A DNA stretch of 42,569 bases from Lentisphaerota bacterium. GTDB taxonomy: Bacteria; Verrucomicrobiota; Lentisphaeria; Victivallales; Victivallaceae. Of this stretch, positions 40,172-42,569 are shown in pieces (the first letter of the stretch is position 1; the number at the start of each line of letters is the position of its first letter). The position numbers and the translations under genes were made by a program. The notes under the pieces are model-generated. The model was not told where the DNA came from. It did not search any database and worked only from the letters and a program-made list of their open reading frames with translations. Location: contig SUVY01000016.1 in assembly GCA_015061775.1 (NCBI GenBank), forward strand, positions 1 to 42,569, read 5' to 3'.

Positions 40172-40582
40172 TTACGCTTCGGGAGCAGCCTCCGCAGGAG
40201 CTTCTGCGGCAGCGGCAGCTTCAGCAGCTGCAGCCTCAGCGGCTGCTTTTGCTTCTGCCTCAGCAGCGGCCTTAGCCTCCGCCTCAGCTTTCGCGCGCTC
40301 GACAGCCTTCTTTGAGGGGGCAGCCTTGCGCTCAACATCGCGCAGGGTCTTGCCGGCGCGGACACGCTCGATCACATCAAGCACGGTGGGGGAGAAAACC
40401 GCACCGACGCTCTTCCAATAATCAGCACGCTCGACATTCACTGCTTCCTCTTTGGTACGGGGATTGTAAAAACCGAGCTCTTCGATCGCTTTGCCGTCGC
40501 GGCTGGAACGCTGATCCATAACCACAACACGGAAGCACACCGCATTGCGGGTGCCGGTACGCTTCAGTCTGACTCTAACCAT
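40172..40582 (-). CDS. rpsP: 30S ribosomal protein S16 with Ala/Glu-rich tail
   Basis: S16 is an early 30S assembly protein. Residues 1-80 match the family: MVRVRLKRTGTRNAVCFRVV, VMDQRSSRDGKAIEELGFYN, RADYWKSVGAVFSPTVLDVI. A C-terminal extension of about 50 residues is built almost only from Ala, Glu and Lys and then Ala and Pro; it would form a long charged helix or stay disordered. Length is 136 versus about 80-90 for most bacteria; extended S16 is known in some phyla. The ATG at 40582 has AAGG 11 nt upstream and gives the normal N-terminus; an ATG at 40600 has no binding site. First gene of the operon. Confidence 0.94.
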   Translation of the reverse strand: MVRVRLKRTGTRNAVCFRVVVMDQRSSRDGKAIEELGFYNPRTKEEAVNVERADYWKSVGAVFSPTVLDVIERVRAGKTLRDVERKAAPSKKAVERAKAEAEAKAAAEAEAKAAAEAAAAEAAAAAEAPAEAAPEA

Positions 40583-40603
40583 AACGTCATTTACCTTCAT
40601 TGG

Positions 40604-40623
40604 GACGCAAATAGCATTGCGTC
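40604..40623 (-). promoter_or_regulatory. Hairpin just before the rpsP start
   Basis: Perfect 7-bp arms GACGCAA (40604-40610) and TTGCGTC (40617-40623) with a 6-nt loop, about 20 nt before the rpsP ATG. It is in the long rpsP leader and could control access to the ribosome-binding site. Confidence 0.45.
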
Positions 40624-40794
40624 ACTTATTGATTGACTATAACACTAAAATTTCTTACAATCCAGATGCTGCCGCAGACGCCCCGAACAGCCACGTTTTA
40701 CGGAACATCCGCAAACACTTCTCTCAAAATCCCAGGCCCAAGAGGATGCGAGCCATAATCAGAAAAAAGCATTCTGCTACATTGAATTTCAAAT

Positions 40795-40823
40795 AATATA
40801 ATTCAAGTTCACCTTGTTTTCAA
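40795..40823 (-). promoter_or_regulatory. Promoter for the rpsP operon, long leader
   Basis: Minus strand: TTGAAA (40818-40823), 17 bp, then TATATT (40795-40800). Predicted start near 40788 gives a leader of about 205 nt. The 362-bp space 40583-40944 holds this promoter, the leader hairpin and the paaK promoter; I see no gene in it. A closer -10-like TATAGT at 40636-40641 lacks a good -35. Confidence 0.6.
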
Positions 40824-40864
40824 GTCTTTTTTGCAAAAAAAACACAATATTATCTTACATTGAC

Positions 40865-40893
40865 TTGCAGTTTTACGTTTCAAGTGTTACATT
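40865..40893 (+). promoter_or_regulatory. Promoter for paaK
   Basis: TTGCAG (40865-40870), 17 bp, then TACATT (40888-40893), with TG one base before the -10. Predicted start near 40900; AGGA lies before the ATG at 40945. Confidence 0.55.
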
Positions 40894-40944
40894 AACAGGA
40901 CGACACAATAGTTTTATCAATTTTTTAACAGGAAAAGTATTACA

Positions 40945-42267
40945 ATGGGACGCCTCTCTATCGATAACTGCGAAATGCTGGCGAAGGATTTCACCGACCA
41001 GACGATCCTCAGGGAACTCCAGCTTTGCAAGTTAAAAGAAATAGTTCGCCATGCTTATGACAATGTCGCTCTTTTCAGAAGCAGAATGGACGAACTCAAC
41101 CTGAAACCTTGCGATATCAAAGAACTCAGCGACCTGGCTAAACTGCCGTTTATGAAAAAGGTCGATCTGCGCGACACATATCCCTTTGGACTTTTTGCCG
41201 TGCCGCAGCGCGATATCGTGCGTCTCCATGCCTCAAGCGGAACCACCGGTAAACCGATCGTTGTCGCCTATACAAAAGAAGATATAGACGTTTGGAACGA
41301 AGTTATGTTCCGTGCCCTCGCCGGCGCCGGACTCGGCAAAGAAGATATCATCCAGGTCTCTTACGGATACGGACTCTTCACCGGCGGTCTCGGAGCCCAT
41401 TACGGTGCCGAAAAACTGGGTGCAACAGTGGTTCCGGCAAGCGGAGGCAACACCAGACGTCAGGTAATGCTTATCCGCGATTTCGGTGTAACTGCCATGA
41501 TGTGCACCCCCAGCTACTTCCTCCATTTGATCGAGGAAGCAGCAAGACAGGGCATCGACCTCAAAGAACTTCCGATCAAGGCAGGTATATTCGGTGCCGA
41601 GCCATGGACTGCAGGTATGAGAGAGCGCATCGAACAGGGTGCCGGAATTGAAGCATTCGACATCTACGGACTCTCTGAGATCATCGGTCCCGGAGTTGCC
41701 ATGGAGTGCCATGAACACGAAGGTCTGCACATTTACGAGGATCACTTCTATCCTGAAATCATCGATCCTGATACTGGAGAAGTACTTCCTGACGGCGAGA
41801 CCGGTGAACTCGTTCTCACCACTTTGAGCAAATATGCAATGCCGATGATCCGTTACCGCACCCGCGATATCACCCGCATCATCAGCGAACCCTGCAAATG
41901 CGGACGCACGATCCGCCGTATAGACAGAATAAGCTCACGCAGCGACGACATGTTCATCATCCGCGGAGTCAATGTTTTTCCGTCACAGATCGAAAGTGCC
42001 ATCCTTGCTATCGAGGGAACCACTCCGAACTACATCATCCGTCTCTACACTGAAAACGGAATGGACAATATCCAGGTTGACACTGAGCTCAGCCCTGAGA
42101 TGATGTCCAACGATGCAGAGCAGATGGAAAAGATGCGTAAACGCATTTCCTCTTCGATCGAGTCCATCACCGGACTCCGCGTCAAACTTCGTCTGGTTGA
42201 TCCCAACACCATAACCAGAAGTGAAGGAAAAGCCAAACGCGTATTTGACGAGCGTACCGCCAAGTAA
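40945..42267 (+). CDS. paaK: Phenylacetate-CoA ligase
   Basis: This AMP-forming enzyme activates phenylacetate to its CoA thioester. The 440-residue protein has the adenylate-forming P-loop-like motif HASSGTTGKP at 95-104, VSYGYGLFTGGLGAHYGAEK, the acyl-binding FDIYGLSEIIGPGVAMEC and a C-terminal domain with PMIRYRTRDI and CGRTIRRIDRISSRSDDMFI. No other paa catabolic gene is near, so in an anaerobe it more likely serves aromatic amino acid fermentation (with indolepyruvate oxidoreductase), an inference from gut genomes. Monocistronic, from its own promoter to a strong terminator. Confidence 0.95.
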   Translation: MGRLSIDNCEMLAKDFTDQTILRELQLCKLKEIVRHAYDNVALFRSRMDELNLKPCDIKELSDLAKLPFMKKVDLRDTYPFGLFAVPQRDIVRLHASSGTTGKPIVVAYTKEDIDVWNEVMFRALAGAGLGKEDIIQVSYGYGLFTGGLGAHYGAEKLGATVVPASGGNTRRQVMLIRDFGVTAMMCTPSYFLHLIEEAARQGIDLKELPIKAGIFGAEPWTAGMRERIEQGAGIEAFDIYGLSEIIGPGVAMECHEHEGLHIYEDHFYPEIIDPDTGEVLPDGETGELVLTTLSKYAMPMIRYRTRDITRIISEPCKCGRTIRRIDRISSRSDDMFIIRGVNVFPSQIESAILAIEGTTPNYIIRLYTENGMDNIQVDTELSPEMMSNDAEQMEKMRKRISSSIESITGLRVKLRLVDPNTITRSEGKAKRVFDERTAK

Positions 42268-42290
42268 GCACAAGACACTATCATATCCAG

Positions 42291-42320
42291 GCACCATCGC
42301 CCAGCGGTGGTGCTTTTTTT
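42291..42320 (+). terminator. Intrinsic terminator after paaK
   Basis: Ten-bp stem GCACCATCGC/GCGGTGGTGC (one U-G pair) with loop CCA, followed directly by seven T residues at 42314-42320. It lies 24 bp after the paaK stop. Confidence 0.93.
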
Positions 42321-42380
42321 CTGGTCATTTTGTTCCATCAGAAAAAAATTGTTAATGTCTCAAATGTTGTGAAGAAAAAT

Positions 42381-42503
42381 GACCGGCGGCGGTGCCCCGC
42401 GGTCAATCTCGCGCCTTGCATCTGCGGCGCGGCGGTCGTGTACAAAAGTACACTCCCTTGCTGTGCTCGATGCAAAACGCGACATTGTCTCACGGATGCA
42501 TCC
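42381..42503. other. GC-rich non-coding patch with several inverted repeats
   Basis: The 302-bp stretch after paaK holds the terminator, this patch and a promoter, and no credible gene. The patch is visibly GC-richer than its AT-rich flanks. It has an imperfect GACCG/CGGTC hairpin (42381-42404), CGCGCC/GGCGCG (42410-42415 and 42426-42431), a perfect GTGTAC-AAAA-GTACAC hairpin (42438-42453) and the palindrome GGATGCATCC (42494-42503). TTGCATC in the second loop (42416-42422) is complementary to GATGCAA at 42469-42475. A frame across it is open and Cys-rich but has no ribosome-binding site. Candidates: structured RNA, dispersed intergenic repeat, or relic. Confidence 0.5.
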
Positions 42504-42531
42504 ACCGAGGCAAACAAGCGTGTGGCGTATG

Positions 42532-42560
42532 TTGACAAAATATAACGAATGTGCTATATT
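42532..42560 (+). promoter_or_regulatory. Strong promoter for a gene beyond the right edge
   Basis: TTGACA (42532-42537), exactly 17 bp, then TATATT (42555-42560), preceded by TGC as extended -10. It is the closest match to consensus in the window. Its transcript would leave the window to the right. Confidence 0.7.
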
Positions 42561-42569
42561 TAAGCACAT

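Follow-up and report, generated by a model that had tools for sequence, protein, structure and literature searches.

A small non-autonomous transposon of gut Lentisphaeria with an internal hairpin, probably conserved as RNA, and an outward promoter motif

What is the structured, GC-rich patch that follows paaK at the very end of this stretch of DNA? The window, by which we mean the whole stretch analyzed (42,569 bp), is contig 63 (G000:C63:1-42569) of a gut Lentisphaeria genome of 2.70 Mb in 107 contigs. A preliminary description had noted a noncoding patch after the paaK terminator and offered three options for it: a structured RNA, a dispersed intergenic repeat, or the end of a mobile element. 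We find that the three hold together, the RNA option being a prediction from sequence. The patch (42381-42503) is indeed richer in GC than its flanks (62.6%, vs. 26.7% just upstream and 39.4% downstream; 50.2% over the whole window), and the terminator lies where it was placed. The perfect inverted repeat GTGTACAAAAGTACAC (42438-42453), the loop complementarity of TTGCATC at 42416 with GATGCAA at 42469, and the 10-bp palindrome GGATGCATCC (42494-42503) are likewise present. The four inverted repeats that had been counted do exist, but they are parts of one nested hairpin, not four separate ones. As read from its sequence, the patch is the middle of a 277-bp mobile element that begins at 42351. 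The features are as follows (window positions).

42289..42315, plus strand: intrinsic terminator of paaK, lying outside the element and shortly before the insertion point
42343..42350, unstranded: AAAAAATT, presumably the left copy of the 8-bp target-site duplication, at the position equivalent to the exact duplications of 18 of 28 intact copies
42351..42569, plus strand: MITE copy covering element positions 1-219 of 277, with 99% identity to intact copy L009:2844-3120
42351..42373, plus strand: 5' terminal inverted repeat GTTAATGTCTCAAATGTTGTGAA, matching, imperfectly and in inverted orientation, the 3' end GGTATTGTCCCAATTTTTGTGAA of intact copies
42387..42506, minus strand: predicted structured RNA core, a long imperfect hairpin of about 120 nt (covariance model R1, E 4.9e-28; covariation; G-U polarity)
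42438..42453, minus strand: apical stem-loop GTGTAC-TTTT-GTACAC (from sequence)
42532..42560, plus strand: sigma-70 promoter motif TTGACA-17-TATATT, its second hexamer preceded by TG (11 of 12 consensus matches)

We interpret the element as a MITE, that is, a small non-autonomous transposon, on the basis of its terminal inverted repeats, target duplications, copy number, and near-identical young copies. For this reading as a whole, in which a Correia/NEMIS-like MITE would carry both a hairpin RNA and a promoter, we put the probability at about 0.72. In intact copies the full unit is 277 bp, running from GTTAATGTCTCAAATGTTGTGAA to TTCACAAAAATTGGGACAATACC. This is below the size of about 500 bp that bounds MITEs, and the unit contains neither a transposase gene nor a conserved reading frame. 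Copies are many and dispersed, and imperfect 23-bp terminal inverted repeats are common to all intact ones. The target duplications are AT-rich and 8 bp long, and are exact in those 18 of 28 intact copies (e.g., TAAAAATT, TATTTTTG, AAATAATA, AATATCTC), to be read against a null in which non-partner flanks agree at seven or more of eight bases in 39 of 756 pairs. The hairpin is wholly or partly missing from seven short copies (120-184 bp), all of which keep the ends and exact 8-bp duplications. The contig stops within the element at 42569, so the window copy lacks the last 58 bp and with them the 3' terminal repeat; the right copy of the AAAAAATT duplication is not assembled in this contig.

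To learn more about the patch, the preliminary description had proposed a BLAST search of the organism's own genome and a covariance search. Run with 42370-42569, the former returned 44 matches (the window copy itself, seven others with 94-99% identity, and a remainder mostly at 80-93%), so the patch is not single-copy. The latter revealed strong covariation, and a model of the core has at least 46 matches in this genome. Because contigs of the genome are broken inside copies, these copy numbers are lower bounds. Several contigs begin or end inside repeat copies (the window at 42569, and C52:1, C58:5, C2:3626, C13:18523, C16:88210, and C78:33603 of the same genome, G000), and repeat copies of this kind break assemblies. 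Within the same taxonomic family, the covariance model found the core in 30 of 78 genomes; ten of these carriers, the window's genome included, hold from 42 to at least 46 core copies, and the remainder hold fewer. Among 289 sampled genomes of the phylum, matches occurred only in members of the family and, weakly, in two outliers. When GTDB genomes were scanned with a pattern, Lentisphaeria assemblies alone appeared among the matches listed, a number of them bearing the label sheep colon. Searches of viral contigs, plasmids, phages, and E. coli genomes yielded no match to the element, and no earlier report of Lentisphaerae MITEs or of the hairpin RNA was found in the literature searched.

As to how the element moves, its IS256-like ends together with the 8-bp duplication suggest an IS256-type transposase as the mobilizing enzyme. 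Ends of IS256-family elements from genomes of the same taxonomic family (GGTAGTGTCCGAAGTTTTGCGCA) agree with the MITE consensus (GGTAATGTCCCAAATTTTGTGAA) in 18 of 23 positions, and IS256-family target duplications are 8-9 bp long; in both respects the element may be akin to IS256-family IS and their MITEs. Unlike those IS, it has no transposase inside. When PF00872 (IS256 transposase) was looked for in the host genome, an assembly in 107 pieces that is fragmented at repeats, none was found. No IS with the exact ends was found either, and the search for an element combining matching ends with a transposase turned up only related IS256 ends in other genomes. A transposase recognizing the terminal inverted repeats would move the MITE in trans, duplicating 8 bp of AT-rich target.

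Within the element, conservation in the window's genome is highest in the hairpin, at 0.93 for the core against 0.75-0.88 over the rest (0.85 and 0.83 for the ends, 0.75 for the linker). An intact 277-bp copy folds better than 200 of 200 dinucleotide shuffles (z-score −5.7 with the plus strand taken as RNA and −7.1 with the minus strand). In an alignment of 33 homologous cores from relatives, compensatory two-sided changes are seen in 24 of 43 base pairs, although the sequences are related and such counts are therefore not of independent events. Standard pairs make up 88.3% of the minus-strand cells. Beneath the apical stem, a tandem G-A/A-G pair is kept in 31 of 33 and 33 of 33 sequences. The covariation score is 0.250, as compared with 0.125 for shuffled alignments and 0.027-0.091 when partners are slid, and none of 500 shuffles reached the observed value. 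Most of the aligned sequences were gathered by a pattern fixing CTCGYGCCTTGC and GCAAAACRCGA (with at most two mismatches each), so those columns are partly conserved through the choice of data; most covarying columns lie elsewhere.

The strand on which the hairpin would act can also be read from the alignment. The consensus folding energy is −34.2 kcal/mol for the minus strand and −10.7 kcal/mol for the plus strand. On the minus strand, G-U cells outnumber A-C cells by 73 to 8 with two invariant U-G pairs left out, a count in which the share of the outer helix leans minus-ward because that helix was placed with minus-strand folds in view; helix 2 and the apical helix are independent of this choice. 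Such an asymmetry is expected of an RNA and not of a DNA hairpin, and with it the aligned cores show selection on the hairpin as a minus-strand RNA. An Rfam search with the patch and its relatives gave no family above the gathering threshold and none matching the core, and the strongly conserved, RNA-like hairpin is undescribed. Gut-1 RNA (Rfam RF01706), known from gut metagenomes, is likewise a bacterial structured RNA. A Gut-1 match at L084:1768-1848, about 150 bp from a core copy, sits outside the core and is below threshold (28.6 bits vs. a gathering score of 50). A shared function as an intrinsic terminator was rejected: of the distinct cores, only 43% have a T-run of five or more after the hairpin when read on the minus strand, and 12% when read on the plus strand. 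An integron attC site was dropped by sequence appearance (no GTTRRRY ends, and no cassette genes between tandem copies).

Could the hairpin instead act as DNA, that is, as a cruciform or single-strand fold that a transposase or a host protein recognizes while the DNA is transposed or replicated, and have no function as RNA? We consider this unlikely. Its location inside mobile elements would fit, as would its loss from the seven short copies at points within or beside the palindrome, and the tandem G-A motifs, which are known to form in DNA too. It would also fit that no promoters point into the hairpin above shuffle on average (on the other strand of the 3' halves); lacking a promoter of its own, the hairpin would depend on read-through for minus-strand expression. 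However, a DNA hairpin predicts about equal numbers of G-T and A-C mismatches, which is far from the ratio given above and from the two invariant U-G pairs. In addition, the ends and duplications kept by the seven hairpin-less copies suggest that the hairpin is not needed in cis for a copy to be retained, with the reservation that the deletions may postdate insertion.

The hairpin behaves as a separate module, in that it is present in a second MITE type and also outside both types. The second type, in SIG93, is about 320 bp long and has the same core between the ends CACA[AG]ACATCTCA and CACAGCTGTCCCATAAAA; its 9-bp duplications are exact in 8 of 15 copies and agree at eight or more of the nine bases in 11 of 15 (null, 0 of 210). 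Elsewhere, the core is found in copies without either set of MITE ends, and other genomes have tandem arrays of cores with periods of about 110-132 bp. Arrays of three to five cores without MITE ends lie at L104:1811-2500, L105:351-850, and L162:2717-3187. It is conceivable, at somewhat less than even odds, that the ~120-nt hairpin is a gut Lentisphaeria RNA family selected for itself, carried as cargo by at least two MITE types and possibly trans-acting. That a trans-acting small RNA hitchhikes in MITEs, with the RNA as the selected unit and the MITE types as its vehicles, seems to us improbable. The same core in two types that differ in ends and duplication lengths, and again in TIR-less copies and tandem arrays, speaks in its favor, but neither a conserved promoter into the RNA nor a conserved terminator is seen, and a host sRNA would not usually be present in so many near-identical copies in one genome.

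The consensus promoter that had been described as lying further on from the patch is present at 42532-42560, but it is not a separate feature, being inside the same element. It is the best of six hits within 40500-42569. The motif, with its exact 17-bp spacing and a score of 10-11 of 12, recurs in 33 of the 36 distinct 3' halves compared, which come from several species, and the hexamer spacing is kept even where the spacer itself has diverged. It points out through the 3' end of the element, away from the hairpin. From this conserved sigma-70 promoter motif we infer probable promoter activity. Right-hand genes are co-directional with it in 14 of 22 cases in the window's genome, which is not significantly above half. 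In the 3' halves of several relatives (L079, L099, L124, L253) the promoter spacer contains an inverted repeat like TCACANNNNNTGTGA, which resembles a regulator or transposase site and has been lost in the window's genome.

Neighboring genes also bear on whether the hairpin might regulate downstream genes in cis, as a leader or a riboswitch-like element, an explanation that is largely refuted and that we regard as very improbable. The gene at the 3' side of the RNA is usually on the same strand in SIG96 (17:5), SIG93 (13:4), and SIG90 (4:0), but the bias is reversed in the window's genome (22 opposite vs. 6 same), and copies lie beside unrelated genes, tens per genome. Since gene orientation around the copies is inconsistent between genomes, a fixed cis-regulatory role was rejected. 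We give almost no credence to a decayed or small protein-coding gene: an open frame does cross the patch in the window, but core lengths vary between 118 and 121 nt, some sequences have stops in every one of the six frames, substitutions by codon position (0.096, 0.068, 0.073) do not favor the third, and changes follow base pairing, so the conserved coding frame that the preliminary description had named as counterevidence was not found, and its view that this is no decaying gene stands.

Among repeats of known kinds, Correia elements have a target duplication of TA, as against 8 bp here, and ERIC elements have a palindrome of about 120-130 bp. Correia/NEMIS of Neisseria are small intergenic repeats bounded by terminal inverted repeats, present in many copies, with a stable stem-loop in transcripts and an internal sigma-70 promoter able to drive neighboring genes (PMC10969869, PMC2229807). 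The MITE is similarly a many-copy, TIR-bounded intergenic repeat with a stem-loop and an internal outward promoter (here, a motif). Correia/NEMIS proper is ruled out by the different ends and the 8-bp duplication, and the hairpin here, unlike theirs, is a separate internal module with compensatory changes across species, not terminal repeats folding together. ERIC elements of enterobacteria are imperfect intergenic palindromes with tens to hundreds of copies (PMC10969869). The palindrome described here is of similar size, intergenic, imperfect, and in many copies, but it sits inside TIR-bounded elements with target duplications, and identity with ERIC is ruled out by the lack of a sequence match in E. 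coli genomes, which contain ERIC. The most likely reading of the element is a Correia/NEMIS-like MITE whose RNA cargo is unusually conserved.

If the Correia/NEMIS-like reading is right, then after insertion between genes, minus-strand transcripts crossing the MITE would contain a stable hairpin. By analogy with Correia/NEMIS (PMC10969869, PMC2229807), this could be a site of transcript processing, stabilization, or possibly termination. The element's promoter would start transcription into the neighboring gene. The element could in this way spread structure and transcription starts between genes, and where a genome holds tens of copies with outward promoters, its transcription could be rewired. 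In bacterial MITEs, a hairpin is usually formed from, or extends, the element's own ends and decays with the copies. In contrast, the hairpin here is internal and the best conserved part, covaries across species, has the polarity of an RNA, and occurs with two sets of ends, which together make it a testable case of a mobile element whose selected cargo would be an RNA.

Other repeats are found next to some of the copies. An unrelated second repeat with CCCGACAAAGGTAGGTAAAAGTAAATAAAA borders several MITE copies (flanks of L014, L018, L019, L021, L022, and L024). A near-perfect long hairpin, GGGGGAAGGGAAAAACTTTTTTTC...GAAAAAAAGTTTTTCCC, lies at L084:1922-2016, and similar sequences flank copies in L021, L142, and L179. 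From L100:1676 onward, short tandem repeats of about 40 bp (GGATGCAAATGTGCGTTTTGCGTTTTGTCACAAATAC) directly follow a core copy.
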